Shown here: piece after piece, positions 2 through 39,095 of the stretch
How the letters are laid out: each line of letters begins with the position of its first letter
Numbering within the stretch: position 1 is the first letter of the stretch
IMG/VR virus record: IMGVR_UViG_3300013004_001895
Coordinates: 1-43,028 of that record
Strand: one strand, 5' to 3'
Length of the DNA: 43,028 bases
Source of the DNA: a virus
Position numbers and translations under genes: made by a program
The notes under the pieces: model-generated
Database searches by the model: none
The model's input: only the letters and a program-made list of their open reading frames with translations
Told to the model about the DNA's origin: nothing

Positions 2-3000
2 ATGGAGAATGGGCATGTATATGCCTGTGGTGGTAATAGCTTTGGTCAATTAGGAGATGGAACAACAACAGCAAAAAATATTGCTATTTTAGCATTCTCT
101 GGGCAAACCTCTACGTGCGTTAGCATTGCTGCTGGAAGATCCACATCATACGCTATTACTGAGGATGGTAAACTATATGCTTGGGGAGCTAACACTTATG
201 GTCAGTTAGGAACGGGAGATTCTATAGATAGAACAACGCCAACTAGAGTTGGAACAGCTAGTAATTGGATCAAAGTTGTTATAGCTAATGGATCAACCGC
301 TTATCACATGTTGGCACTAAATAGTGCTGGAGAAATTTATGGATGCGGTTTAAATACTAGCGGTCAACTCGGACAGGGCGATACGGCAACAAGAAATGCA
401 TTAACGAGAATAGGAACCGATTCAAATTGGACAGATATAGCAGTTAACGAAGTAGCATCTTATGCCGTTAAATCTGATGGTACTCTATGGGCTTGCGGAG
501 GCAATACAAATGGATCACAGGGTAATGGATTATCAACTGGAAATGTATTGACTATAACCAGAATTTCTTCTTTGGTCAATATAACAAAAGTATTTACTTG
601 TAATTCTGGACTTGCTGCCGCACTTAATTCTAGTAATCAGCTATTTATTTGGGGTGGAACCAATAGCAATGCTGTATTAAGAACTACCGGAACTATTATT
701 AGTGGCCCAAGTTTAATTTCTGGGTCTTGGAAATTCTTTACAGCCAACACAACATTTTCTATTGCTATAGCTACAAATGGCGACGTTTATGCCGCTGGAA
801 CTGGCGGCGCAGTAGTTGGCAGAGGGCCAAGCGGTTCTATTGTTTTTAATAGTCCTTTAGACGATATTAAAAATGCTCAATCGGCTTCTATATCCACAAC
901 GCACTCATTTATATTAGTACAACCAACACAAAAGCTTGTATACAGTGTTGGCAAAGATGCCGGAACAACTAGCAGCACAACCATATCCACTCCATTATAT
1001 TATGGGTATCCAAGAGCCTATTTGCCAAATAACAATATTAAGCAATTCATTGTTAATAAAAGGAATGATGCTGGCGTTAATATAACATCAGATTTCAAGA
1101 TTATTTTAACGGACGATAATAAACTATATGGGTGGGGCGGAAGTGTTTATGGAGTTTTTGGTGACTATGGATATGATACCCTATTTAACCCATATAGCTC
1201 TATTCATAAAGCTCCATTTTCTTCTATATACTATAATTTTAATAATGAAGAATGGAAAAAAATTGCAGCGGGTGTTTCTCATGCTGCATACTTATCCATA
1301 GATGGAACGCTAGTACTGGCCGGTACTCAATACTATTCATCTTTGGCATATAGTACTGGTGTAGATGGTACAATACAAAATAATATATCAATAACAACAA
1401 TCTTCAATGATGTTGATTGCGGCGATTTTTTTACTATTGCAATAGGTGCAAACAATAGACTATATGGATGTGGTATCAACAACTATGGTCAAGTTGGAAT
1501 AGGAAGTGCCGGATCACAAGTTCAATCGATGACCCAATTATCGTCATCGGTACTATTTTCTAAAGTATCTTGCGGATTAAGTTTTACTTTTGGATTGTCA
1601 GTAAATAATCAACTATATACTTGGGGTAGAAATCTTTATGGTCAGCTTGGTTTAGGAAACAATAACGATCTATATTCTCCAACATTCGTTGTTACAAACA
1701 ATGATAATATAGTAGATATCGCCTGTGGCTATAATCATGGAATTGTATTAAAATCTAATGGCACAATATGGGGCTGTGGATTAAATAATGTTGGTCAATT
1801 AGGAACCGGCGTAGCCACAACATCATATACAACACTAACACAAATAGGCACCGCTTCAAACTGGGTTCAGATATTTGCTTTTGCAGATAATACAGTAGCC
1901 ATCAATTCTTTAGGTGAAATTTATATTTGCGGATCCAACGCAAGCGGTCAAATTGCTACCGGATTAAATTCACCGTCCATATACAGAAATTTAACCAAAA
2001 TATCGCAGCTATCTGTATCAAATCCAACAGTAAATCCCTCTACTTTCGCTGGAACAGCAGACGGCTGGTTCGGAACAGCATATGCTGATTCAAACATTCC
2101 TCTAACTACGACAACAACTACCACCACGGCGCAGCCATGTTTTATAAATAACTTAAATACAAGTATAAGTACAAGCGGACCAACTGGTACTATATTCGTT
2201 CAAGGTGTAGGGGGTGCATCCTCAAAAACTAAAAAAACATCATTGCAAGCTATAGATGCTGGAGTTACTGTCGGTGGGTATACCAATAACACTGGCACAT
2301 TAATAGTTTTTGATGGTGATCAATCTGGCTCTACATTTACTGTCAATGACCTAATAACATTCCCATTCTCGGTAACAGCATTTAGTCTGTCTGGCAGAGT
2401 CTCAGCAATTGCTACTTATAGAGTTAGTGCGATAGTTGATATTAGCCCTATATCCCCAAATTATCCAAACACTCAAGCATTGGCCGTTGTATGTTCTGAT
2501 GTTGCGACCACAACCACAACTACAACCACATCCACAACCGCCGGTCCCGGCGGATCTACAACTACTACCACAACAACAGCCGCACCAAATTATCCGCCCT
2601 ATGCATATGTATCAAATGCTGACTCAAATACTATAAGTATTGTAGAAGTATCAACCGGCAATTTATTTGCCAATATTAATTTGCCGGGAAGCCCGACAAG
2701 ATCATTTGTGGATGGAACTGGCAACACTGCATATGTTATCTTACAAAATAGTGGATCATTAAATAGTTCACTGTGCATAATTAATACCAGTAATGGATCA
2801 ATAAGATCTACATTAAATTTACCGTCTGGCTTTAAAGCTACATGGATATCTGTAGATACAACAAACAAAAAAGCATACATATCATCAGATTCTACTACGT
2901 CCATATTAGTATTGAATACTATAACCGGAACTATTTCTGAAGTACTTACTTATCCAACCCCGATAAGATCTACTTTGATTGATATTCCTAATGGACTTAT

Positions 3001-4186
3001 GTATTGCTGTGAAACTACAAGCGATACAGTTGGAGTATTTAATCTATCTTCTAAAACTAGAACAGCAACAATATCTGTTGGTGGATTCCCGTATGGTTTA
3101 GCATTAAATTCATCTACTAATAGGTTATATGTATCAAACTTCAACGCTAACAACATTAGTGTCATCAACACACTAAATAATACGGTTACTTCTACCATAT
3201 CTGGTGGATCTAAGCCAATACAACTTGCAATCAATCCATCCACACAAAGGCTATATGCAGTCAATTTATCAGCTAGTGGCACAGTTACGGTTATCAATAC
3301 TAGCAACGAAAGTATTGTGTCTACTATAAATATTGGATCTTATCCACAATCTATAGCTTTAGATACAACATATAATAGAGCAATTGTTACCAGCGGAGAA
3401 GATAATCAAGTTCAAATTCTGAATCTTTCTAATAATACAGTATATGGCGTTCTCAATGTTGGAAATAATCCACTATATGTTTCTATCGGTAATGTTTTAG
3501 TATCGAATACAACTACCACAACAACAACAACGGGCTTACCGGGAACAACAACAACTACGACCATAAATCCAGCGTTGGCTTGTATCCCAAGTAAACAATT
3601 TTTACGCATTCAACTCAGAAGAGGAACAAATGAAGAATTTGTTGATTCTAATTTGATCCTAGCTTCTGGCGAACCAGCGTATGCTCTAGACACAAATATT
3701 TTTAAGATCGGTGATGGCATTAGAAATTGGACGCAATTGGATCCCATCGGCGTTGATATGTCTAATCCAACCGATATATACGTTGAGCTTCAAGACATTC
3801 TAGTTGGTGGAGATAGAATATCATTTAACTATGATAACAATAATCAAAAAATTTCTATCAATTCTGCCTTAGAGCCACAAGTGTTTCAGCGTGGAGATTT
3901 TAGCCTATCTGCTAATCAAAACAATCTTAACTTAGGTATAAGTGCCGTTGTCAAAGTAATACCCAGTACAAACATAAACATTACTGGAATACTAGCTGGA
4001 CAAAATAATGAAATGAAATTAATATACAATGGCGGCAATAATAATGTAACAATGATGCACAATTCATCGTCTAGTTCAGTTGGAAATAGAATCTTCAATT
4101 ATACAAAACAAAATTTTATACTATCTCCAGATCATGGTGTAACTATAATATACGATAGTTCTATTCAATCTTGGAGACTATTCTAA
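2..4186 (+). CDS. Giant modular tail adhesin with RCC1-like and YVTN beta-propellers (5' partial)
   Basis: The reading frame is open from the window edge and begins inside a repeat, so the true start lies outside. About 13 RCC1-like repeats (pattern L-Y-x-W/C-G-x-N-x-x-G-Q-L-G-x-G) fill residues 1-680, enough with the missing part for two seven-bladed propellers. Three Thr-rich linkers (residues ~702-709, 836-859, 1170-1187) separate a small beta module, a YVTN-type propeller (~860-1168; repeats such as LYVSN, SVINT, NRAIVTS) and a C-terminal fibre module starting RIQLRRGT. That last module resembles the N-terminal domain of major tropism determinant proteins and is followed by a VGGDRISFNY tag common in environmental phage fibres. 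It is most likely a surface-exposed receptor-binding protein. No enzymatic motif is seen. The next gene repeats its terminal modules. Role is inferred from architecture. Confidence 0.8.
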   Translation: MENGHVYACGGNSFGQLGDGTTTAKNIAILAFSGQTSTCVSIAAGRSTSYAITEDGKLYAWGANTYGQLGTGDSIDRTTPTRVGTASNWIKVVIANGSTAYHMLALNSAGEIYGCGLNTSGQLGQGDTATRNALTRIGTDSNWTDIAVNEVASYAVKSDGTLWACGGNTNGSQGNGLSTGNVLTITRISSLVNITKVFTCNSGLAAALNSSNQLFIWGGTNSNAVLRTTGTIISGPSLISGSWKFFTANTTFSIAIATNGDVYAAGTGGAVVGRGPSGSIVFNSPLDDIKNAQSASISTTHSFILVQPTQKLVYSVGKDAGTTSSTTISTPLYYGYPRAYLPNNNIKQFIVNKRNDAGVNITSDFKIILTDDNKLYGWGGSVYGVFGDYGYDTLFNPYSSIHKAPFSSIYYNFNNEEWKKIAAGVSHAAYLSIDGTLVLAGTQYYSSLAYSTGVDGTIQNNISITTIFNDVDCGDFFTIAIGANNRLYGCGINNYGQVGIGSAGSQVQSMTQLSSSVLFSKVSCGLSFTFGLSVNNQLYTWGRNLYGQLGLGNNNDLYSPTFVVTNNDNIVDIACGYNHGIVLKSNGTIWGCGLNNVGQLGTGVATTSYTTLTQIGTASNWVQIFAFADNTVAINSLGEIYICGSNASGQIATGLNSPSIYRNLTKISQLSVSNPTVNPSTFAGTADGWFGTAYADSNIPLTTTTTTTTAQPCFINNLNTSISTSGPTGTIFVQGVGGASSKTKKTSLQAIDAGVTVGGYTNNTGTLIVFDGDQSGSTFTVNDLITFPFSVTAFSLSGRVSAIATYRVSAIVDISPISPNYPNTQALAVVCSDVATTTTTTTTSTTAGPGGSTTTTTTTAAPNYPPYAYVSNADSNTISIVEVSTGNLFANINLPGSPTRSFVDGTGNTAYVILQNSGSLNSSLCIINTSNGSIRSTLNLPSGFKATWISVDTTNKKAYISSDSTTSILVLNTITGTISEVLTYPTPIRSTLIDIPNGLMYCCETTSDTVGVFNLSSKTRTATISVGGFPYGLALNSSTNRLYVSNFNANNISVINTLNNTVTSTISGGSKPIQLAINPSTQRLYAVNLSASGTVTVINTSNESIVSTINIGSYPQSIALDTTYNRAIVTSGEDNQVQILNLSNNTVYGVLNVGNNPLYVSIGNVLVSNTTTTTTTTGLPGTTTTTTINPALACIPSKQFLRIQLRRGTNEEFVDSNLILASGEPAYALDTNIFKIGDGIRNWTQLDPIGVDMSNPTDIYVELQDILVGGDRISFNYDNNNQKISINSALEPQVFQRGDFSLSANQNNLNLGISAVVKVIPSTNINITGILAGQNNEMKLIYNGGNNNVTMMHNSSSSSVGNRIFNYTKQNFILSPDHGVTIIYDSSIQSWRLF
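2105..2128 (+). repeat. ACN codon repeat encoding Thr linker 1
   Basis: Eight consecutive Thr codons of mixed third base (ACT, ACG, ACA, ACC) join the RCC1-like part to the next beta module. Mixed codons argue for selection on Thr as well as for repeat slippage. Confidence 0.85.
2507..2578 (+). repeat. ACN codon repeat encoding Thr linker 2
   Basis: Two Thr runs (2507-2539, with one Ser codon, and 2558-2578) flank a short Ala-Gly-Pro-Gly-Gly-Ser spacer. They separate a small beta module from the YVTN propeller. The composition is mucin-like. Confidence 0.85.
3509..3562 (+). repeat. ACN codon repeat encoding Thr linker 3
   Basis: Two Thr runs (3509-3532 and 3545-3562) flank a Gly-Leu-Pro-Gly spacer. 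They join the YVTN propeller to the C-terminal fibre module and have the same design as linker 2. Confidence 0.85.
3605..3862 (+). repeat. Fibre module (Mtd-N-like plus DRIS tag), copy 1; copy 2 at 4205-4471
   Basis: This stretch encodes RIQLRRGT...GEPAYALDT...KIGDG...GGDRISFNYDNNN, matched in the next gene by KIKLRRGT...GEPGFETDS...KIGDG...AGDRISLDYNDND. In copy 1 it sits near the C-terminus of the adhesin; in copy 2 it opens the protein. The nucleotide sequences have diverged, so the duplication is old or came from exchange between related phages. Confidence 0.75.
4061..4186 (+). repeat. C-terminal fibre module, copy 1; copy 2 at 5846-5971
   Basis: Both adhesin genes end with the same module: S-S-S-S-(V/A)-x-NRI, then (S/Y)P(D/N)(H/N)G(V/T)T(I/V)IYD(S/N)S, and a terminal WRLF. 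A shared end of this type suggests a common fold at the fibre tip or a shared attachment surface. Confidence 0.75.
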
Positions 4187-19193: not shown

Positions 19194-20666
19194 ATGGAAA
19201 CAAAACTAACCGATATTGGATCAGAACGTGCAGTTCTGGCTGGAGTACTACAGCATGGCATAGATGGATATGTTGCTATATCTGATATTATCAACAGCGA
19301 AAGCTTTGGTCATGTCAATAATCAAGTTCTCTACAAGTGCATAGAGAAAGTAATTAATAATGACCAAAAGGTTGATATACCAGCTATATTAGCCGCTGCT
19401 GATCATTTGAATTTGGGCGACAGTATAAATACTCCACAGGAGTTGAAATACATAAAGTCTTTGTTTGATTTTCCAGTTAACAAAGATAATATTTTTAGTT
19501 TTGCACTGCAAGTCAAAAAGTTTGAATTTGCACGTAAAATCAAAAAGCTAACCGCCAAGATTCATAAGGATGTAGATGATGTTACCGGATCAGAAACCAT
19601 TAATGATATCATACAGATCCTAGAGAATCCCGTCACGGAATTTTTACGAGAAGATGACGGCGGGGATACGCCAGAAAAGATAGGAAAGGATATCGCAACT
19701 TATGTAGATTTCTTAGAAAATAACAAGTGCGATGTTATTGGTATTCCAACTGGATTTTCCCGTTACGATGAGGCTATCGGTGGAGGATTAAGGAGAAAGT
19801 GCGTAGACCTTGTGGCTGCAAGACCAAAAGTTGGCAAAAGCGTATTTGCTGATAATGTAGCATTAAATGTAGCTACCAGAAATGTTCCAGTGTTGATGCT
19901 TGATACGGAAATGAGCAAAGAGGACCATCTTAATAGATTGTTATCTGGCATTAGTGGTATACCAATTAATGAAATTGCAACCGGTAAATTTGTTGACGAT
20001 GATGAAAAAAGGTCTTGCGTTCGCGGGGCTATGGAAATTTTAAGCTCTATACCGTATTCATACATTAGCGTTGCTGGCAAACCATTTGATCAGATTTTGA
20101 ATCTAATCAAAAGATGGATTGTGCAAGAAGTCAAAACAGATGATACTGGCAAAACTAATGACTGCCTTATCATATATGATTATTTAAAACTAATGTCATC
20201 TAGCTCCATTACTAACAATATACAAGAGTATCAAGCACTAGGTTTTCAGATTACATCTCTACATAATCTGTGTGTTAAGTTGGATATTCCATGTCTTTCT
20301 TTCGTACAGCTAAATAGAGATGGCATTACAAAAGAAAGCACAGACGCTGTATCTGGTTCCGATAGATTAATCTGGTTATGCACATCTTTTTCCATTTTTA
20401 AGATCAAATCTCCAGAAGAATTAGCAGAGGATGGTCCCAATGCTGGTAACAGAAAATTAGTACCCATTGTTTCAAGACACGGTGGCGGATTAGACGATGG
20501 TGATTATATCAATATGATTATGCAAGGTTCCCATGCAAAACTAAGAGAGTTAAAAACAAGGAATGAGTTTAAGAATCAGCCAGTTGGCGATACAGGATTA
20601 ATAGATAAAAATACACTAGATAAGGTAAACGATGGACTTGCAGAAGATCAAGAAGACTCTGAATGA
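19194..20666 (+). CDS. dnaB: DnaB-like replicative helicase
   Basis: This hexameric helicase unwinds the fork ahead of the phage polymerase. An N-terminal DnaB-type helical domain (residues ~5-110; ERAVLAGVLQHG) is followed by a linker and a RecA-fold ATPase with Walker A ARPKVGKS (209-216), the DTEMSKE motif (237-243), Walker B LIIYDYLKLM, and the FVQLNRD region with sensor Gln. Length is 490 residues, normal for the family. The primase gene begins within its 3' end. Confidence 0.93.
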   Translation: METKLTDIGSERAVLAGVLQHGIDGYVAISDIINSESFGHVNNQVLYKCIEKVINNDQKVDIPAILAAADHLNLGDSINTPQELKYIKSLFDFPVNKDNIFSFALQVKKFEFARKIKKLTAKIHKDVDDVTGSETINDIIQILENPVTEFLREDDGGDTPEKIGKDIATYVDFLENNKCDVIGIPTGFSRYDEAIGGGLRRKCVDLVAARPKVGKSVFADNVALNVATRNVPVLMLDTEMSKEDHLNRLLSGISGIPINEIATGKFVDDDEKRSCVRGAMEILSSIPYSYISVAGKPFDQILNLIKRWIVQEVKTDDTGKTNDCLIIYDYLKLMSSSSITNNIQEYQALGFQITSLHNLCVKLDIPCLSFVQLNRDGITKESTDAVSGSDRLIWLCTSFSIFKIKSPEELAEDGPNAGNRKLVPIVSRHGGGLDDGDYINMIMQGSHAKLRELKTRNEFKNQPVGDTGLIDKNTLDKVNDGLAEDQEDSE

Positions 20667-21651
20667 AAATGCAGAGAAGATATTCTCTAAGCTTGGAATG
20701 AAGTACGAGGTATTCGGGGATAATATTTATTCAACGTGTCCAGTTCATGAATCTAGCGACAACCCAAGAGCATTCTCATTCTCTGTAAATAAAGGCATCT
20801 GGAAATGCTGGACCAGAGATTGTCAGCATCAATATAAAAACGATCTATTTGGCTTGATCCGTGGGGCATTATCCCAATCTCGCGGAGAGGATGTTACCTT
20901 TGGAGATGCTCTCAAATGGGCCTGCGACACGATAGAATTGAAAAGATCAACAACAACCAGTACTCCACCACCAAATCAAATAACGGATTTTGAACGCCTT
21001 GTGTCCTTTCTAAATCAGAAGGATGAAAAGGTAATACACCGATCTATTATTTTAGAAGAGGGAATACACTATCCATCTAAATATTTTCTAAGCCGTGGAT
21101 TTGAGGCATCAACATTGAAATATTTTGAAGTTGGAGATTGCACAAACAAGAAGTCCAAAATGTATGATAGATCTATTATACCCATTCATGATGACGAGGG
21201 TAAACTGGTTGCTATGATAGGCAGAGCTATCAAAGAGTATAAGTCACCAAAGTTTTTGTTCGATCCAAAGGGTTTTAACAAGGCAGACCTGTTTTATAAC
21301 TACCACAGAGCTATAAATAAGATAGTAGAAACGCACTCTGTCTTTTTGGTCGAGGGTCAGGGGGATGTATGGAAGCTATATGAAGCTGGCATACATAACG
21401 CCTTGGGTCTATTTGGGAAAACCATCAGCAAAGAACAAGAACTAAAGCTGAATAAATTACCCATCACACACATTGTTGTGCTAACAGATAATGACCAAGC
21501 GGGCAGAGAATCAAAAATACAAATACAAAGACAGTTTAGCAGATTTTATAAACTAAGCTTCCCAAAGCTAAACAAAAAAGATATTGGCGATATGACAGTT
21601 GAACAGATTAAAACATTGATACTACCACAGATAAAAGGGTTATCTCTATGA
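20632..21651 (+). CDS. dnaG: DnaG-like DNA primase
   Basis: It synthesises RNA primers. The N-terminal zinc finger has ligands C36, H39, C59 and C64. A Toprim domain follows, with the catalytic Glu in FLVEGQGDVWK and the D-x-D in VVLTDNDQAG; the basic RNA-polymerase region (MIGRAIKEYKSPKFLF) comes before it. At 339 residues it lacks the C-terminal helicase-binding domain of bacterial DnaG, as is common in phage. It overlaps the helicase gene by 35 bases, fitting co-expression of helicase and primase. Confidence 0.92.
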   Translation: MDLQKIKKTLNENAEKIFSKLGMKYEVFGDNIYSTCPVHESSDNPRAFSFSVNKGIWKCWTRDCQHQYKNDLFGLIRGALSQSRGEDVTFGDALKWACDTIELKRSTTTSTPPPNQITDFERLVSFLNQKDEKVIHRSIILEEGIHYPSKYFLSRGFEASTLKYFEVGDCTNKKSKMYDRSIIPIHDDEGKLVAMIGRAIKEYKSPKFLFDPKGFNKADLFYNYHRAINKIVETHSVFLVEGQGDVWKLYEAGIHNALGLFGKTISKEQELKLNKLPITHIVVLTDNDQAGRESKIQIQRQFSRFYKLSFPKLNKKDIGDMTVEQIKTLILPQIKGLSL

Positions 21652-22391
21652 AGATTATTGGCATAGCTGGCAGAAAGCAAGCTGGCAAGAATACGGTAGC
21701 AAATTATATCAATGGTCATGTGCTTAAGCATAAAAACATGATCAATGATTTTGCTATTGATTCCAACGGTATGCTTGTAGTAAACACACAAGATATTACT
21801 GGTCAGTCTGGTTTTGGCATTTTTGACGTTACTAGAAAAGATAGTATCTTTGTAGATTATGCAGAAAGAGATTTATGGCCTTACGTCAAAGTTTATCATT
21901 TTGCAGACCCTCTTAAAGAAATGGCGGTAGGGTTATTTGGATTAAAACCATCTGAAGTTTATGGAAGCGATGATCAAAAGAATTTAGTAACGAATATTAA
22001 TTGGGAATCAATGCCAGATTGTCCACCAGATAAAGCTGGGCCGATGACAAATAGAGAGTTCCTAGAACATTTTGGAACTAAGATAGTGCGTAAAATTAAA
22101 AGAGACGCTTGGTCAGAATATGCAATAAACAAGGTCGTGGCAGAACAATCAGAAATAGCTATTATACCAGATGTAAGATTTCCCAACGAAGTAGAGTCAA
22201 TACAAAAGAACGGTGGAGTAGTAATCAGATTGACACGCAATGCTTTTAACAGCAACGCAGAAGCAGAAAAAGCACTAGATAAAGAAAATTTTGATTGGAA
22301 GAAGTTCGATTTAGTAATCGACAATCATGCAATGTCATTAACAGATTTGTGTGATTATCTCAAGAACCATTCTCATTTTTGGGGGTATTGA
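21648..22391 (+). CDS. Deoxynucleoside monophosphate kinase (T4 gp1-like)
   Basis: A P-loop kinase that phosphorylates dNMPs for DNA synthesis. Walker A is GRKQAGKNT (residues 8-16). The motifs HFADPLKEM, GTKIVRK and IPDVRFPNEVE...GGVVIRLTR are typical of the phage dNMP-kinase family. At 247 residues it matches T4 gp1 in length. It fits with RNR and dUTPase upstream. Nothing in the window makes hydroxymethyl-dCMP, so I do not infer modified cytosine. Confidence 0.88.
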   Translation: MKIIGIAGRKQAGKNTVANYINGHVLKHKNMINDFAIDSNGMLVVNTQDITGQSGFGIFDVTRKDSIFVDYAERDLWPYVKVYHFADPLKEMAVGLFGLKPSEVYGSDDQKNLVTNINWESMPDCPPDKAGPMTNREFLEHFGTKIVRKIKRDAWSEYAINKVVAEQSEIAIIPDVRFPNEVESIQKNGGVVIRLTRNAFNSNAEAEKALDKENFDWKKFDLVIDNHAMSLTDLCDYLKNHSHFWGY

Positions 22392-23410
22392 TGTTAGTCA
22401 CATATATTAGATCATCAAGTTACAATAATTACTCGTATTGTCAAATGCAATATTTTATTACCTATGTCCTTGGTCATCAGCCAGACAGCGGTAAGAAAGC
22501 GGAGCTTGGTACAATTGTACACAAAGTAATGGAGACTCTAGCAAAATTAAAGAAATATCAACAAGATAATCCAAAAAAGACTAAGTTGATAATTACTGAT
22601 GAAGCTGTTGGCGAAATTAATATCAAAAAGGCAGACCTCTTCACCGATGATTGCGTAAAGGATATTATACAAAAGAGTTTCAATTTTTATACCTCTGACT
22701 CAAAGCACAACTTTACAAAGGGCGATAATGAAAGCTGTGCAGATTTGGTATGGAATACTCTAAGCTATAATGACGGACAATTTGATCCACGATATAGGAA
22801 CATAGTTGCCGCAGAACCCCATTTCGATATTCCAATTGATGAAGATTGGGCGCATTTTGATTATAAGGTTGGAGATAAAACAATAAAGGGTCAATTGGCT
22901 ATTAAAGGCACCATAGACCTAGTTACAGAATCCTCAGATGGCATAATAGAGGTTATAGATTGGAAAACTGGTAGACGGCTGGATTGGGCAACGGGGGAGG
23001 AAAAAACATACGAAAAACTATGCTCAGATCCACAGCTATTACTTTATAATTATGCTATATCTAAGCTTTTTCCAGAGTATAAACAGTCGATAATGAGCAT
23101 CTTTTTTATTAAGGACGGCGGTCCATTTTCTATGTGTTTTGACAGGGATGACGAGAAAAGATTTCTAAATATGCTTAAAAACAAGTTCGAAGATATCAAA
23201 AAGAACAATACTCCACAGCCAATCTCTCAGAATCGTGACAACTGGAAATGTACCAAATTATGCCACTATTGTAAGAATAACTGGCCGGGAACCGATACCA
23301 ATATGTGTATATACATAGAGAATAGCCTCAAATCCAAAGGAATGGATGAGACTATCAAACATTGCACAAAACCCGGATTTGATATTGGGTTTTATTCCGC
23401 TCCCGGTTGA
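22391..23410 (+). CDS. Cas4/RecB-like PD-(D/E)XK exonuclease with Fe-S cysteines
   Basis: Start ATG 22391 overlaps the kinase stop (TGATG), with GGGGG upstream; the TTG at 22379 is less likely. Nuclease motifs are GTIVHKVME, GTIDLV with the metal-binding Asp, and EVIDWKTG with E-x-x-D-x-K. An early Cys (YCQMQYF, residue 17) and the C-terminal CTKLCHYC...MC could bind an iron-sulfur cluster, as in Cas4 and AddB. It probably resects DNA ends for recombination along with the RecA-like protein. Confidence 0.85.
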   Translation: MLVTYIRSSSYNNYSYCQMQYFITYVLGHQPDSGKKAELGTIVHKVMETLAKLKKYQQDNPKKTKLIITDEAVGEINIKKADLFTDDCVKDIIQKSFNFYTSDSKHNFTKGDNESCADLVWNTLSYNDGQFDPRYRNIVAAEPHFDIPIDEDWAHFDYKVGDKTIKGQLAIKGTIDLVTESSDGIIEVIDWKTGRRLDWATGEEKTYEKLCSDPQLLLYNYAISKLFPEYKQSIMSIFFIKDGGPFSMCFDRDDEKRFLNMLKNKFEDIKKNNTPQPISQNRDNWKCTKLCHYCKNNWPGTDTNMCIYIENSLKSKGMDETIKHCTKPGFDIGFYSAPG

Positions 23411-26388: not shown

Positions 26389-28017
26389 ATGGCTTGGTTT
26401 CCATTGAAAAACTACACACACTATAGTCTATTAAAAGGCTATTCGAAGCCAGACGAACTGGCTTTTAAGTGCAAAGAAAATAATTATTTAGCCTGCGGTA
26501 TTTGTGACTATAAAACAATATCTGGTGCTGTGTCCTTCTACAAGGCTTGCAAGAAAGCTGGCATTAAGCCAATCATAGGCTGCTCATTTGATAAATTCTC
26601 TCTATTCGCCAAGAATAAGGCGGGGTGGCACGATTTAATAGAATTAGTCTCATCACTTGATGAAAATGATAATGTCCCAGAATCTATATTGTCTAATATT
26701 TTGAAGAAGAATAATCTTATCAAGTTGTCAGACTCTTATTCTAAGTCTATGCCTATTAGTTATTATACAAATAGGGCGGATGCCAAACTACACAGAGTTT
26801 TACTTTGCTCTGATATGAAGACAACTCTGCCAAAAGTAACTAAATGTATCAGACAAGATAAAAATGGCAGCATAAATGTTGATTCCTATTTGGCACAAAA
26901 TCATGCTGATAAAGTTCAATACTTCATGCATGATACTTATTATGTTCTGGATAAAGACGAATCCAAAGATTTGGACTCTACTGAACTAGATAAGATCTAT
27001 AGTCAATGCGAAGATTACGACATTTTAAACAAGCCAATGCTACCAAAGTTTAGCTGTCCAAACGGAGCCACAGAAGAAGATTATCTTAAAGAACTGTGCC
27101 GCGAGGGGTGGAAAAATCTTTTGATAGCACAAAATAAAGTATCTAATGAAGATGATAAACAAAGATATCTTGATAGATTCAAAGAAGAATTCGACGTTAT
27201 TAAAAATGCTAACCTATTCGGTTATTTTTTGATTGTTCGTGATATCATAAACTATGTGAATAGCAGGGGATGGCTTTCTGGCCCCGGTAGAGGTTCAGCG
27301 GCTGGATGCTTAATCTCATATCTTGTCGGAATTACTAAAATCGATCCTCTAGAATTTGATCTTCTATTTGCTCGTTTTTATAATGCTGGACGAAATACTG
27401 CTGACCATATATCTTTACCAGATATTGATATGGACGTTCCCGGCAAGCATAGAGATGAAATTATTGGGTACATTAAGGACAAGTATGGTCATGATCGCGT
27501 CAGTCAAATGTTAACGTTTGGTAGACTACAAGGAAAGAGTGCTATCAAAGAAGTTCTACGTATTAATGAGGCTTGTTCTTTTGCTGAAATGAATGCTATA
27601 AGCAATTGCATTCCAGATGAAGCTAAAATCTCAGATCAACTAGCAGAAATGGACGATGAAGATCGATCTATCATTAGATGGGCATTGATCAACAATGCTG
27701 ATGAACTGAGGGACTTTTGTAGAATTAATGATAATGGTGAACTTGAGGGCGAATATGCTGATTATTTTGATCAAGCTATCAAAATCGAAGGCACATTTAA
27801 AACGCAAGGAAAACATGCCGCCGGTGTTGTGATCTCTGCCGAACCTTTACAAAAAGTTTGCCCAATGGTAAAACAGAAAGGATCGCATGAAAAAATTGCT
27901 GGGTTAGAAATGAGTGATCTAGAGGCGTTGGGTCATGTAAAATTTGACGTTCTAGGAATCAATTTGCTAGATAAAATCATGAAGATACAAGAAATAACAG
28001 GAGTTGCAAATGGCTAA
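26389..28017 (+). CDS. dnaE: DNA polymerase III alpha, N-terminal half (PHP plus catalytic palm)
   Basis: Start ATG 26389 follows GAGG (26378-26381). A PHP-type domain covers residues ~1-200 and ends in sequence typical of DnaE, including KKAGIKPIIGC. The palm motif SGPGRGSAAGC, the Asp pair in PDIDMDVPG and the third catalytic Asp in KFDVLG are all present. The chain stops 21 residues after KFDVLG, before the fingers, so it cannot be a complete polymerase. The PHP metal ligands are missing. The remainder of the enzyme is encoded at 28680-30251, after an exonuclease gene. The two halves should associate to give one active polymerase. Confidence 0.9.
   Translation: MAWFPLKNYTHYSLLKGYSKPDELAFKCKENNYLACGICDYKTISGAVSFYKACKKAGIKPIIGCSFDKFSLFAKNKAGWHDLIELVSSLDENDNVPESILSNILKKNNLIKLSDSYSKSMPISYYTNRADAKLHRVLLCSDMKTTLPKVTKCIRQDKNGSINVDSYLAQNHADKVQYFMHDTYYVLDKDESKDLDSTELDKIYSQCEDYDILNKPMLPKFSCPNGATEEDYLKELCREGWKNLLIAQNKVSNEDDKQRYLDRFKEEFDVIKNANLFGYFLIVRDIINYVNSRGWLSGPGRGSAAGCLISYLVGITKIDPLEFDLLFARFYNAGRNTADHISLPDIDMDVPGKHRDEIIGYIKDKYGHDRVSQMLTFGRLQGKSAIKEVLRINEACSFAEMNAISNCIPDEAKISDQLAEMDDEDRSIIRWALINNADELRDFCRINDNGELEGEYADYFDQAIKIEGTFKTQGKHAAGVVISAEPLQKVCPMVKQKGSHEKIAGLEMSDLEALGHVKFDVLGINLLDKIMKIQEITGVANG
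28004..28013 (+). repeat. Direct repeat TTGCAAATGG, left copy (right copy 28662-28671)
   Basis: The same ten bases occur at the start of the exonuclease gene (where they include its ATG) and near its end. They bracket the segment that interrupts the polymerase gene, as expected from duplication at insertion or from recombination at a short homology. A chance match is possible. Confidence 0.55.
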
Positions 28018-28690
28018 CAGAGACTTTATTATATTTGACTTTGAAACGGGATCAAGAAATCCACACAGAACACAACCAACACAAATTGCCGCCATAGCAC
28101 TAGATGGTAGAACGCTATCAATGAAGGGGCAATTCAATAGTGAGATAAAACCGATCTTTGATGAAGCGGAAGCCGTTGCCGCTGGTGTTGACCCAATCGA
28201 AGATGAAGCACTTAAGATTACTAAGAAGACAAGAGAACAGCTAGAAAAAGCTCCATCATTAAAATCTGTATGGTCCAAGTTTACTAAATTTGTTGATCAG
28301 TATAATTGGAAGGGCGACACATTTTTTAATCCAATTCCAGTTGGGTTTAATATTATTGGATTCGATATGATTATAGTCAATAGGCTATGTAGAGAATTTG
28401 GGCCTTGGGATAAAGATCGTGAGCAACAAAAGTTATTCAGCAAGGTTTATAAGTTTGATATCATGGACTCTGTTTTTGCTTGGACAGAGAGCGATCCAAG
28501 TATTAGATCTATAAGCATGGATGCATTGAGAGAACGTATGGGCTTAAGTTTTGACAATGCACACGATGCTTTGCAGGACGTAAAAGATGAAGCAAATATC
28601 TTTATCAAACTGATGAAAACACACAGAGCAGTATATCAAAATATTAAATTTGAGAAAGCCTTTGCAAATGGGGAATTGTATGTTAAATGA
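28010..28690 (+). CDS. DnaQ-like 3'-5' proofreading exonuclease nested in the split polymerase
   Basis: This is a DEDD-family exonuclease like the epsilon subunit of PolIII. Motif I is FDFETG (D-x-E), motif II GFNIIGFD, and motif III NAHDALQDVKDE with the catalytic His and Asp, so it is the DEDDh type. Start ATG 28010 has CAGGAG six bases upstream and overlaps the polymerase stop. The 3' end overlaps the second polymerase gene by 11 bases. It should proofread for the split polymerase, whose PHP domain looks inactive. Its C-terminal ANGELYVK may derive from former polymerase sequence. Length is 226 residues. Confidence 0.92.
   Translation: MANRDFIIFDFETGSRNPHRTQPTQIAAIALDGRTLSMKGQFNSEIKPIFDEAEAVAAGVDPIEDEALKITKKTREQLEKAPSLKSVWSKFTKFVDQYNWKGDTFFNPIPVGFNIIGFDMIIVNRLCREFGPWDKDREQQKLFSKVYKFDIMDSVFAWTESDPSIRSISMDALRERMGLSFDNAHDALQDVKDEANIFIKLMKTHRAVYQNIKFEKAFANGELYVK
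28662..28671 (+). repeat. Direct repeat TTGCAAATGG, right copy
   Basis: Right-hand partner of the repeat at 28004-28013, 658 bases apart, lying just before the start codon of the C-terminal polymerase half. Confidence 0.55.
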
Positions 28691-30251
28691 TTTGGATTAT
28701 CACGACAAGCCCACTTGGCAATTGTTTGCAGATGGTAAGACCAAGGGTATCTTTCAGCTAGAAAGTAATCTTGGTAAGTCTTGGTCTAAAAAACTGGCTC
28801 CAACTAACATTGAGGAACTGTCTGCCTTAATTGCTATTATTAGGCCGGGAACATTAAAAGCATATGTCGATGGAAAGAGTATGACACAGCACTATGTTGA
28901 TAGAAAGCATGGTAGGGAAGAAGTTACATACTTACATCCAGCACTTGAAGAAATATTGAAGCCAACATATGGCGTTCTGGTTTATCAAGAGCAATCCATG
29001 CGTATAGCAGAAAAGATTGCCGGTTTTAATTTGCAAGAAGCCGACGTTCTTAGAAAAGCTATCGGTAAGAAAAAAGCAGACCTTATGAACGAGGTTAAAA
29101 AGTCTTTTATTGCTGGTGCAGAAAAAGTTGGCATAGTAAACAAGGAAGAAGCAGAGCAAATCTTCGGATGGATCGAAAAGTCATCCAGATATGCCTTCAA
29201 TAAGTCTCATAGCGTCTCTTATGCAATATGTTCTTATTGGAGTGCATATTTTAAGGCCCATTATCCACTTCAATTTTTCTTATCGTATCTTTATTATGCT
29301 AACGAAAAACAAGACCCTCATCAAGAGATTTACGAATTAATTTCTGAGGCAAAACTGTTTGACATAGAAACAAAGACCCCAAATCTATCTAATTTTGATA
29401 AGAAGTTCAATATCAAGAACAAGAAGATATATTTCGGTATTAAAGATGTCAAATCTCTTACTGGAGCAACTGGCGATAAATTGATTACTGTTATAGACGA
29501 AGCCCAAAAAGAGTTGGGTAAGCCAATTAAGGACTTTACTTGGTTAGAAATTCTACTCTTTGTTTCGTCTAAGATTAGCTCTACTGCTTTTAAGTCATTA
29601 GCATCCATTGGATTTTTTAGAAACTTTAGTGGAAAGATCACTAGGAATAAAGCACTATATGATTATGAGATCTATAGAACTTTGACAAAGGCTGAACAAA
29701 ATTGGATTATTGAGAATTATCCTACTAAGCAATGGTCTAGTTTCGTTGATTGTTTAAAGGACTTAGCACCAACTAAAAAAGAGGGTGGAGGAACTTCCAA
29801 AATAGATCGTAAGCAGGCAATCGAAAATGAGATTCAACTATTGATTAATCCGCCATACGATCTAGAAGACGATCCAAGCTGGGTCATTGATCAAGAAGTA
29901 AAGTTCTTGGGGTGTCCAGTGAGTATGGCTAGAGTGGAAACGTCCGACACTTCGGCAGCAAATACAACATGTAGGGAAATCGTAAATGGGAAACGCGGAA
30001 AAGATATTTGCGTTGTCGCCAACGTACAAAGGGTTTCTGATTATACTATCACCAAGGGTGAATCTAAGGGGCAATTGATGTCATTTTTAACAATAGAAGA
30101 TGATTCATGTATGTTAGATAGCGTGATAGTATTTCCAAAAGTAAGGGAAAAGTATAAGTACGTCCTATACGAAGGAAACAATCTCATATTTTGTGGATCG
30201 GTAGAAAAGAACGATAACTCTTTTATCGTCAATCAAATTCACGAAATCTAG
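28680..30251 (+). CDS. dnaE: DNA polymerase III alpha, C-terminal half (fingers to OB fold)
   Basis: The start is ATG 28680 (GGGGA five bases upstream) or ATG 28668; it lies in the end of the exonuclease gene. Sequence resumes where the upstream half ends: KGIFQLES, IIRPGTLKAYVDG, DRKHGREEVTYLHP, YQEQSMRIA, the RKAIGKKKADLM fingers motif and NKSHSVSYA, which binds the incoming nucleotide. A helix-hairpin-helix region (~residues 230-270) and a C-terminal OB fold (~435-523) follow. It lacks all three catalytic Asp residues and must work with the N-terminal half. Length is 523 residues. Confidence 0.9.
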   Translation: MLNDLDYHDKPTWQLFADGKTKGIFQLESNLGKSWSKKLAPTNIEELSALIAIIRPGTLKAYVDGKSMTQHYVDRKHGREEVTYLHPALEEILKPTYGVLVYQEQSMRIAEKIAGFNLQEADVLRKAIGKKKADLMNEVKKSFIAGAEKVGIVNKEEAEQIFGWIEKSSRYAFNKSHSVSYAICSYWSAYFKAHYPLQFFLSYLYYANEKQDPHQEIYELISEAKLFDIETKTPNLSNFDKKFNIKNKKIYFGIKDVKSLTGATGDKLITVIDEAQKELGKPIKDFTWLEILLFVSSKISSTAFKSLASIGFFRNFSGKITRNKALYDYEIYRTLTKAEQNWIIENYPTKQWSSFVDCLKDLAPTKKEGGGTSKIDRKQAIENEIQLLINPPYDLEDDPSWVIDQEVKFLGCPVSMARVETSDTSAANTTCREIVNGKRGKDICVVANVQRVSDYTITKGESKGQLMSFLTIEDDSCMLDSVIVFPKVREKYKYVLYEGNNLIFCGSVEKNDNSFIVNQIHEI

Positions 30252-30302: not shown

Positions 30303-30614
30303 ATGAATGTGTGTTCTTTTACGGGGTATCTTGTTGAAAACCCTAGGATATCAATGGAAGGCGATGTGGTGAAAGCTGAGTTTACGATGGTGGTATATAC
30401 TTATCGTAAAACAAGAAGCGGTGAGAAGAATAGAATACCTACCTATTTGCAGTGCGAAGCGTGGCATACTGGTGCAGAAACTTTAGAAAAATATGCTACA
30501 AAAGGAACTAAATTGAACGTTCACGCTTCTGCTAAAAATGTATCTAAAGATAATAAGTCAGTTATTTTTAGAATAAACGAGTTTGACTTCTGCAACCAAG
30601 AGTACGACTATTAA
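30303..30614 (+). CDS. ssb: Single-stranded DNA-binding protein
   Basis: A compact OB-fold SSB: N-terminal VCSFTGYLVENPR, central AEFTMVVYTYRKTRSGEK and TYLQCEAWHTGAETLEKYATKG match the bacterial SSB pattern. There is no acidic C-terminal tail of the DDDIPF type; it ends CNQEYDY instead. CAAGGAG lies upstream. It follows the polymerase genes by 51 bases and completes the replisome set. At 103 residues it is shorter than bacterial SSB. Confidence 0.9.
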   Translation: MNVCSFTGYLVENPRISMEGDVVKAEFTMVVYTYRKTRSGEKNRIPTYLQCEAWHTGAETLEKYATKGTKLNVHASAKNVSKDNKSVIFRINEFDFCNQEYDY

Positions 30615-30615
30615 T

Positions 30616-32280
30616 ATGAGAAAAAAACGCATACTATTTTGTAGCGAAGCTACATTTTTAAATACTGGATATGCTACTTATACCAGAGAGATATTGAACT
30701 ATCTACACAATACTGGTAAATATGAACTAGCAGAAATGGCATCATATGGTGAGCGAAAAGACAAGCGGGCCGCTTCTATACCTTGGAAATATTACGGAGT
30801 AGTACCGGATAGTTCTTGCTCAGAAGATGAAAAGAAGCAATATGCAGAACATCCAATAGCACAATTCGGTGAACTATTATTTGAATCTGTTTGCTTAGAT
30901 TTTCAGCCAGATGTCGTGTGCGATATCAGAGATTTCTGGATGTTGGACTTTCAAGAGCGTTCTCCGTTTAGGCCATTTTACAAATGGTGCATTATGCCAA
31001 CCGTTGATGCTAAACCACAGGCTAGGCAATGGATTGCAACATACGAGTCTGCTGATGCTTGTCTAACATACTCTGAGTGGGCTGGAGAAGTAATCAAAGA
31101 ACAATCTGGTGGTAAAATAAAATATTTGGGAATAGCACCACCCTCTGCACATCCAGCATATCAACCCATTGATGACAAGTTATCTTTGAGACAATCTTTT
31201 GGCATTAATCCAAATGCAAAGATAGTTGGCACCGTAATGAGAAATCAAAGGCGCAAATTATATCCAGATCTATTTTCAGCATTTAGGTTATTATTGGATA
31301 AGACTAATAATGATCCAGACTTAATGTTATATTGTCACACAAGTTATCCAGACCTTGGTTGGGATATACCGGAGCTATTACAAGAATACGGTCTTTCTTC
31401 TAGAGTTTTATTTACATATATCTGTGGTCAAACTGGTAAGCCCTTCGTTTCTTTATTTAGGGGTGCGGTAGCACAGTCACCTTATTCAAATAAATATGGT
31501 GCCGTATTATCAAATGTTAAGAACGGTCTAGAGTATGAGGATCTTGCAAAGATTATCAACTTATTCGATCTATATGTTCAGTATGCAAACTGTGAAGGCT
31601 TTGGGTTGCCACAAGTAGAAGCTGCTGCATGTGGCGTTCCAGTAATGTCAACGGATTATTCTGCTATGGAAAGTGTTGTTAGAAACTTAGGTGGAATACC
31701 GATTACACCAAAAGCTCTGTATAAAGAACTAGAAACCGGATGTCTAAGAGCAGTGCCAGACAATGAATTGGCATCTAGTCTAATGTTAGCATTCTTCAAT
31801 ATGCCAAAAGATCAACGGCTTAATTGGGGTGCAAAAACAAGAGAATCTTTCTTAAAGCATTATAGGTGGGAACAAAGCGGGAAAATGTGGGAAGATTATT
31901 TTGATAGTGTCGAGATTATACCTGACCACTTGGGCTGGAAATCTCCATCTAGAATCAGAAAACCACAAGCTAAACCAGAGAATATAAATAAGCAATTTTC
32001 TCATGAAGATTTGGCCCGCTGGTTGATAACGTCTGTATTGTGTGAGCCAGAAAAGATAAATTCATTTATGGAAGCTAGGCTTGTACGAGATTTGATGTAT
32101 AAGAGTACAACTTCTACAACGGGCGGAATGTATTTTAATGAAAGTTCAGCCGCCTTTGATGGTAAACAGGGAAGATCATTTTTTGATTTTGATATGGCAT
32201 ACAACCAGATGTTAGCACTATGCAATAGAAGAAATTATTGGGAACAAAAGCGATTAGACGCTATAAGGAATATTAAATGA
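30616..32280 (+). CDS. GT-B glycosyltransferase (GT4-like), 554 aa
   Basis: ATG 30616 is chosen over the TTG at 30583 that lies inside ssb. The N-terminal Rossmann half starts RILFCSEATFLNTGYATYTRE; the C-terminal half has the donor-binding GT4 motif EGFGLPQVEAAACGVPVMST (E-x7-E type). Residues after ~400 form an extra helical extension with KSTTSTTGGMYFNE. It opens the glycan cluster running to 38331. Sugar and acceptor cannot be told from sequence. Confidence 0.85.
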   Translation: MRKKRILFCSEATFLNTGYATYTREILNYLHNTGKYELAEMASYGERKDKRAASIPWKYYGVVPDSSCSEDEKKQYAEHPIAQFGELLFESVCLDFQPDVVCDIRDFWMLDFQERSPFRPFYKWCIMPTVDAKPQARQWIATYESADACLTYSEWAGEVIKEQSGGKIKYLGIAPPSAHPAYQPIDDKLSLRQSFGINPNAKIVGTVMRNQRRKLYPDLFSAFRLLLDKTNNDPDLMLYCHTSYPDLGWDIPELLQEYGLSSRVLFTYICGQTGKPFVSLFRGAVAQSPYSNKYGAVLSNVKNGLEYEDLAKIINLFDLYVQYANCEGFGLPQVEAAACGVPVMSTDYSAMESVVRNLGGIPITPKALYKELETGCLRAVPDNELASSLMLAFFNMPKDQRLNWGAKTRESFLKHYRWEQSGKMWEDYFDSVEIIPDHLGWKSPSRIRKPQAKPENINKQFSHEDLARWLITSVLCEPEKINSFMEARLVRDLMYKSTTSTTGGMYFNESSAAFDGKQGRSFFDFDMAYNQMLALCNRRNYWEQKRLDAIRNIK

Positions 32281-37897: not shown

Positions 37898-38331
37898 ATA
37901 TAGGGATTTATATAGACAGTTTATCAGACACAAAGCAACTTGAAGCTATAAATAACTTTGTTGCCAACTCGCTCCAGCATAATGGTGTTCACGATGTTAG
38001 CTTATTCTATAACGGAATAGGGTTTAACCCATTTAACATCAAGTGCGGAATGTTTAATAGCACAGATTTGTGGAATTTCAAAGGTAAGTTAGTTGTATCC
38101 TCTTTGAATTGTTTGGTTAGCTCCAAAAATATAGTCAATAATTTAGAACTATATTACTATTACGGATGGGAACAAAATATAAAGGTGCTGGATATTTTGC
38201 AGATTATGCAGGACAAAATACCTATTATATGTAGGTCAGTAGCGGATCAAGAGTTTATCTATAGGGTTACTGGTGTCAATCCACTCGCGGTTTCTAATAA
38301 CTTCGACAATTTACTGGAACACATATTATGA
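37894..38331 (+). CDS. Hypothetical glycan-cluster protein, 145 aa
   Basis: ATG overlaps the GT2 stop. The sequence is alpha/beta, starting GIYIDSLSDTKQLEAINNFV and including KLVVSSLNCLVSS and IPIICRS strands, as in the N-terminal half of a GT-B protein. No donor-site motif is present. It may be a truncated glycosyltransferase or an unknown family. Confidence 0.55.
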   Translation: MNIGIYIDSLSDTKQLEAINNFVANSLQHNGVHDVSLFYNGIGFNPFNIKCGMFNSTDLWNFKGKLVVSSLNCLVSSKNIVNNLELYYYYGWEQNIKVLDILQIMQDKIPIICRSVADQEFIYRVTGVNPLAVSNNFDNLLEHIL

Positions 38332-39095
38332 ATGCCGAAAAAATAGTAAGAATGTATGTTGAAGAGAACAAAAGTACATACGAAATTGCGGAGGCTATGG
38401 GAACTTATCCAAATAAGATAAGACGTATTCTCATCAAGAACGGTGTGAATCTGAAAAATAAAAGTGAAGCACAAAAAAATGCCATCGAAAGCGGAAATGC
38501 AAAACATCCCACGTTGGGCAAAGAAAGAACTTATGAGGAAAAAATCAAGATCAGTTCTGGCTTAAAAAATTATTGGGAAAATATGGACGATGCGGAATAC
38601 CAAAAGAAAATTAAGCAAGCAAAAAAACGATGGGAAGAAATGTCAGAGATTGATAAGAGCAATATGTTGGAGTCTGCTATCAAAAGCATTCAATTAGCTG
38701 GTAAAGAAGGATCAAAGTTAGAAAAGTTTATATACGAAGCCTTAGAAGCTAGCGGATATAAAGTAGATTATCATAAAAAATATCTTATCCAAAATGAAAA
38801 TCTTGAAATCGATATGTACGTGCCGTCGATCAAGACTATAATAGAAGTAGACGGACCATCCCACTTCTTGCCCATATGGGGAGAGGAAAAACTACAAAAA
38901 CAAATCAAGGCAGATTTTCATAAAACTGGTTTGATTCTAAGCAAGGGTATGGTAATAGTCAGAATAAAACATTTAGCTGACTCCATGTGTTTGGCCGATA
39001 AAGAAAAATTGAGGGTTGACATTCTGAAATGTTTGGATACAATCAAGAAGAAGTTTCCCAAAGAATCAGAAAGGTATATTGAGATAGAAACATGA
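38328..39095 (+). CDS. HTH plus PD-(D/E)XK (Vsr-like) homing-type endonuclease
   Basis: Residues 1-45 form a helix-turn-helix (YEIAEAMGTYPNKIRRILIK). Residues ~55-100 hold a basic helical linker like the NUMOD modules of homing endonucleases (GKERTYEEKIKISSGLKNYW). The nuclease core is EIDMYVPSIKTIIEVDGPSH, then QIKADFHKTG and VIVRIKH: the Vsr/DUF559 type of PD-(D/E)XK fold. It resembles free-standing phage homing enzymes. It sits at the border between the glycan cluster and recombination genes, overlapping both neighbours. Its core is similar to that of the nuclease at 17889. Confidence 0.75.
   Translation: MNAEKIVRMYVEENKSTYEIAEAMGTYPNKIRRILIKNGVNLKNKSEAQKNAIESGNAKHPTLGKERTYEEKIKISSGLKNYWENMDDAEYQKKIKQAKKRWEEMSEIDKSNMLESAIKSIQLAGKEGSKLEKFIYEALEASGYKVDYHKKYLIQNENLEIDMYVPSIKTIIEVDGPSHFLPIWGEEKLQKQIKADFHKTGLILSKGMVIVRIKHLADSMCLADKEKLRVDILKCLDTIKKKFPKESERYIEIET

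Follow-up and report, generated by a model that had tools for sequence, protein, structure and literature searches.

The virus record IMGVR_UViG_3300013004_001895 of IMG/VR carries the alpha subunit of DNA polymerase III (Pol III), DnaE, as two separate genes with a DEDDh 3′–5′ exonuclease gene between them (Table 1); the window, in what follows, is the whole stretch analysed, positions 1 to 43,028 of that record. Together the three cistrons very probably supply the phage with a Pol III-type replicase core of its own, with a two-chain alpha subunit formed from the N-half and the C-half. The split is real, old and conserved; the uncultured aquatic phages that have it are widespread. Pol III alpha in two pieces is already known from phages with another break; the break between palm and fingers is a new form.

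The gene anatomy agrees with the first-pass annotation of the window, which had described a polymerase in two genes, the N-half with the palm and catalytic Asp residues and the C-half resuming at GIFQLES, and between them an intact exonuclease overlapping both by a few bases. Pfam places PF02811 (PHP) and PF07733 (DNA_pol3_alpha) in the N-half and PF17657 (DNA_pol3_finger, 8.2e-49) in the C-half; PDIDMD and KFDVLG lie within the former and GIFQLES within the latter. By Pfam, alignments and Foldseek, the two halves together hold the domains of a DnaE: PHP, palm with three catalytic Asp, fingers and OB region. The exonuclease matches PF00929 (RNase_T, 1.6e-14) and phrog_192 (‘DNA polymerase exonuclease subunit’, 2.1e-24) and has the D-E-D-H-D motif residues, which make it a likely proofreading subunit. 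All three cistrons lie on the plus strand, with overlaps of 8 bp (N-half/exonuclease) and 11 bp (exonuclease/C-half). Shine-Dalgarno-like GGAG/GGGGA sequences precede both internal starts and, together with the overlaps, suggest that translation of the three cistrons is coupled.

Two IMG/VR scans gave 160 loci, 117 of them distinct after removal of duplicates (individual loci bear L numbers below). Clade 1, the window's own, comprises 36 of the 117, about 80% identical to the window (C-halves about 72–87%), and clade 2 comprises 81, about 45% identical to the window. The split point matches across both clades, and the order N-half, exonuclease, C-half is found in all complete loci (116/116). 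None of the 117 polymerases has its halves fused, so the single polypeptide of the Pol III alpha family is not seen among them; two unfused polypeptides throughout support the earlier proposal that the halves work in trans. The catalytic Asp residues of PDIDMD and KFD are invariant across 45 aligned rows. Against five relatives, both halves and the exonuclease show dN of 0.07–0.15 with synonymous sites saturated (pS 0.69–0.80); purifying selection on both halves is strong. A scan of bacterial genomes for related loci found no relative.

Against Escherichia coli alpha, the N-half aligns to about residue 564, followed by a short tail, and the C-half aligns from 591, its first residue falling near 585. 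Palm and fingers of the E. coli protein form one body, residues 281–432 plus 510–810 (PMC4703070); the break therefore falls inside that unit, cutting it at the linker 3′ of the last catalytic palm strand. When the halves are rejoined, the linker from KFDVLG to FQLES has 54 residues, within the range of five intact relatives (49–56), so that no polymerase residues are missing. The ELYV near the exonuclease end, formerly taken for the lost polymerase sequence, is the exonuclease's own conserved tail, and no similar sequence stands at the junction of unsplit polymerases. This tail, ANGELYVK, is conserved where the C-half abuts it (L002), where the C-half is 340 bp off (L005, DGNLYVK) and next to an unsplit polymerase (L188, AGQELYIK). 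Modelled alone with AlphaFold2, each half gives a confident, well-folded unit: the N-half (pLDDT 90.2, pTM 0.87) ends in a helix, residues 525–537, and the C-half scores pLDDT 91.7 and pTM 0.83; the best Foldseek matches of the N-half are Pol III alpha, which the C-half also matches. In clade 2 the C-half starts with an N-terminal extension of ∼30–45 residues (e.g. L071:5923–6050) bearing a YPCGCSF motif, possibly metal-binding, that is absent from the window's clade.

The spacing of the cistrons varies among relatives. Clade 1 gaps contain an Endonuclease VII-family open reading frame (ORF), other HNH-like ORFs (by eye) or an FkbM methyltransferase gene; such Endonuclease VII or HNH-like ORFs occur in the gaps of several relatives, and the window has no free-standing homing endonuclease there. 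In nearly all clade 2 loci a conserved ORF of 56–70 aa with an SCCxxxNA motif (e.g. L071:5047–5223), for which Pfam gave no match, lies between N-half and exonuclease. In L051 and L065, 2.6–3.6 kb holding ThyX and other genes separate the exonuclease from the C-half and put the halves up to 4.5 kb apart, which excludes fusion in cis there. The exonuclease had also been proposed as a physical spacer between the halves; this idea fails on those intervening genes of up to 3.6 kb, on the unrelated 49-aa ORF in its place in phage phiT1 (described below), and on L188, where the polymerase is one chain. The L051 and L065 intervals (L051:3515–4495, L065:3728–4798) include a DUF1559/prepilin-like gene beside ThyX; the DUF1559 we take as a hint of a planctomycete host.

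The C-terminal helix of the E. coli proofreader packs against the PHP domain (PMC4703070). Within the window's clade this domain no longer has its metal ligands (HxH to NxT, TDHG to CDYK, DAHY to ISYY) and is shorter (window 26389–26800). The ligands are mostly kept in clade 2 and kept also in intact relatives, so that the split and the loss of PHP chemistry are separate matters. At one locus, L121 (5257–5935), the exonuclease reading frame is in two pieces, by frameshift or sequencing error.

Intact relatives were found by a pattern scan for joined genes. L178/L188 has a single chain (1144 aa in L188; N-region identity 53%), with the exonuclease (57% identical) upstream. L189/L190 is joined at the palm–fingers site, but a split intein interrupts its fingers. 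L188 and L190, with N-region identities of 50–53%, have the same surrounding operon genes as the window and an intact DnaE, one chain across the palm–fingers linker, with the exonuclease upstream. The intact operon reads primase, dNMP kinase, RecB, a 161-aa gene, exonuclease, polymerase, SSB, glycosyltransferase; the split one reads primase, dNMP kinase, RecB, N-half, exonuclease, C-half, SSB, glycosyltransferase, with additional genes 3′ of RecB in clade 1. What sets the two arrangements apart is the order of N-half and exonuclease. The L190 intein (L190:3322–8005) splits the fingers at ..SYSFNR/SHS.., close to the cyanobacterial DnaE split-intein site, with an endonuclease-like stretch between its halves.

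In the enzyme we propose, the N-half (PHP, palm, thumb) and the C-half (fingers, helix-hairpin-helix, OB) would be translated separately from cistrons that are probably coupled, and would associate non-covalently across the palm–fingers interface into one active alpha subunit. The DEDDh protein would serve as an epsilon-like proofreader, perhaps docked on the PHP domain, whose metal ligands are lost in the window's clade. The arrangement is old and fixed in this phage group; it would have come about through an early split with later re-fusion in one branch or through repeated splitting at the same loop. Twelve contigs of 71–204 kb, which may be incomplete, each hold one palm and one fingers domain and gave no PolA or PolB match; the contig of L178, with its intact polymerase, is among them.

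The first-pass annotation had further implied insertion of a 658-bp exonuclease cassette into an intact dnaE between 10-bp direct repeats, such that its removal restores the gene. The repeat TTGCAAATGG is present as described and the frame arithmetic (658 bases plus one) is correct. A recent insertion is nevertheless highly improbable, because the break is common to two clades only about 45% identical, the polymerase lacks no residues and in the intact relative the exonuclease gene precedes that of the polymerase. Only the window virus has the repeat pair: nine related loci, examined at either end of the exonuclease, all lack it (L017 has the end copy only). Such repeats are moreover common, with five 10-bp direct repeats within 700 bp in the 3.9-kb stretch and 127 in the whole window, and we rejected the pair as an insertion scar. 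Decay or artefact (assembly error, frameshift or pseudogene) is a still weaker candidate, with a negligible chance of being right: the contig is metagenomic and split genes are often artefacts, but both halves are under strong purifying selection, and the same break stands in the separate contig L001 (99.9% match over 13.6 kb, 10 mismatches, same genes) and in >100 divergent loci. The break is therefore not the assembly error that had been named as a refutation. Scarcely more credible than insertion is that the halves end up as one chain through ribosomal frameshifting, an intron or a split intein that escaped detection. The genes do overlap, and split-intein halves are present at other polymerase sites in these phages (L029, L152, L087, L190). 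But no intein motifs were seen at N-half ends or C-half starts in the loci read, and the absence of an intein at the window's break means no protein splicing there; Rfam gave no group I/II intron at the gathering threshold in the window and four relatives; and in relatives the cistrons are separated by HNH genes, by a 60-aa ORF or by other genes spanning up to 3.6 kb.

A more serious alternative concerns how often the gene broke. In trees the intact pair adjoins the window's clade (support 98/98 for the polymerase, 96/100 for the exonuclease and 100/100 for both), so the split was either reversed or arose repeatedly. A single split clade is weakly rejected by the approximately unbiased (AU) test on the joint data (p 0.031), while the single genes do not reject it (polymerase, 0.0735; exonuclease, 0.067); long branches (L191, outgroups) leave the root region unsure. 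Most simply, two changes suffice: an early split, then one re-fusion. Separate breaks in the window's clade, clade 2 and L191, for example by exonuclease–polymerase tandem duplication with reciprocal truncation or by repeated homing-endonuclease damage, are possible, if the less probable course. The site is recurrently broken, phiT1 having split there independently; relatives have extra breaks with homing endonucleases; and the 161-aa gene beside the exonuclease is common to L188/L190 and the split clade 1 loci L003 and L032, where it lies downstream of the N-half. Against this, three events would be needed, all yielding RecB, N-half, exonuclease, C-half, where parsimony on the tree needs two changes. 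Some points weigh against the two-chain replicase and the history we prefer for it. Heterodimer assembly is argued from the lack of an alternative; the loci, all of them metagenomic, may be fragments, and the phages may use a host polymerase or an unrecognised phage polymerase; and the order of events rests on few intact genomes and long branches, with single-gene AU p values of only 0.067–0.074. We advance only tentatively, with confidence a little short of even, the wider proposition of an obligate two-chain Pol III alpha in a large phage lineage, its split gained and re-fused and its linker an interface at which bacterial-type replicases naturally assemble.

For the jumbo phages of group 2.2, Iyer et al. 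(2021, PMC7824862) predicted a split minimal Pol III alpha. As in the window, a phage Pol III alpha there takes the form of two stand-alone proteins predicted to reconstitute the enzyme. The jumbo-phage break, however, runs between the NTP-binding and Mg-binding subdomains, and that enzyme lacks other domains, has its genes far apart and is accompanied by a family B polymerase, whereas the window has an alpha from PHP to OB, broken between palm and fingers, in one operon with an exonuclease, and neither PolA nor PolB was found in the 12 contigs. By break site, gene distance and PolB, the window lies outside the jumbo-phage class.

The same break is found in Rossellomorea phage phiT1 (PV767480), an isolate with a cultured host, where gp20 ends KFDLLGLKTLKVIQNSVDQINQGVAV and gp18 begins MFDILDIPLDDAKTYKLLCDGNTSGVFQLES, the two being annotated as Pol III alpha genes. 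phiT1 differs in being only ∼37–44% identical and in having a 49-aa ORF instead of the exonuclease between the halves; its grouping with intact enzymes in the tree (97/95) makes this look like an independent break at the same linker. In Microbacterium phage Kate the polymerase breaks at another place, between PHP and palm. Genes fractured by split inteins (Dassa et al. 2009, as cited in PMC6892783) and the split-intein PolB of phage MIJ3 (PMC6892783) resemble the window's relatives at other DnaE sites, in that a phage polymerase gene is broken with endonuclease genes in the gap; the window differs from them in having no intein, nor intein halves, at its palm–fingers break. In OM43 phages, too, the polymerase occupies two genes separated by a small ORF, and the authors suspected an intron (PMC10580990); the likeness to the window drawn here is one of gene layout. 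A limited search of the open-access literature found no description of a palm–fingers break in phage DnaE.

The window and its relatives form a large natural sample in which a replicative polymerase is made as two separable chains; intact and split forms share one operon context, and a phage of a cultured host adds an independent split. With them it can be tested whether the palm and fingers of Pol III alpha come together in trans, what that costs, and whether breaking up the polymerase is an adaptation or a scar left by mobile elements.

Further breaks occur in some relatives. In nine loci the N-part is itself two ORFs; that of L063 resembles a frameshift or deletion, and the others inspected are split-intein or homing-endonuclease breaks. 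A second break at GPGRG/SAAG with split-intein halves is found in L029 (2400–3650), L027, L058/L132, L087/L073 and L152; between the intein halves of L029 there is a VSR-like endonuclease ORF (by eye). In L160 (3150–4450), L161 and L165 the polymerase is in three pieces: it is also broken before PDIDID, where the gap holds a LAGLIDADG-like ORF (by eye) and shows no clear intein.

Table 1. Polymerase locus and associated features of the window
Feature	Position	Strand	Description
DnaE N-half	26389..28017	+	ATG to TAA, 542 aa; degenerate PHP domain, palm with all catalytic Asp, thumb
DEDDh 3′–5′ exonuclease	28010..28690	+	ATG to TGA, 226 aa; motifs FDFETGS, GFNIIGFD, HDALQD
DnaE C-half	28680..30251	+	ATG to TAG, 523 aa; fingers, helix-hairpin-helix-like region, OB fold; begins MLNDLDYHDKPTW
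Break point: N-half end, past last palm strand	27940..28014	+	KFDVLGINLLDKIMKIQEITGVANG; aligned to intact relatives
TTGCAAATGG, copy 1	28004..28013	+	judged chance
TTGCAAATGG, copy 2	28662..28671	+	judged chance
SSB, next gene 3′ of polymerase	30303..30614	+	PF00436; same position in split and intact relatives
Glycosyltransferase, conserved flank of polymerase locus	30583..32280	+	PF00534; synteny
RecB-like PD-(D/E)XK nuclease, conserved upstream gene	22379..23410	+	PF12705, 1.6e-21; synteny
DnaB-type replicative helicase, same replication module	19194..20666	+	PF03796, PF00772, phrog_19
DnaG-type primase	20632..21651	+	Toprim, DNAG_N, phrog_47

The polymerase genes are part of a tailed-phage replication module that also encodes ribonucleotide reductase, UvsX-like recombinase, DnaB-like helicase, primase, dNMP kinase, RecB-like nuclease and SSB. 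Elsewhere in the window are a downstream HNH homing-endonuclease-like gene (38328–39095) and, at 2–4186, a gene for an RCC1/beta-propeller repeat protein of 1394 aa with an Mtd_N (major tropism determinant) domain, probably tail-associated.

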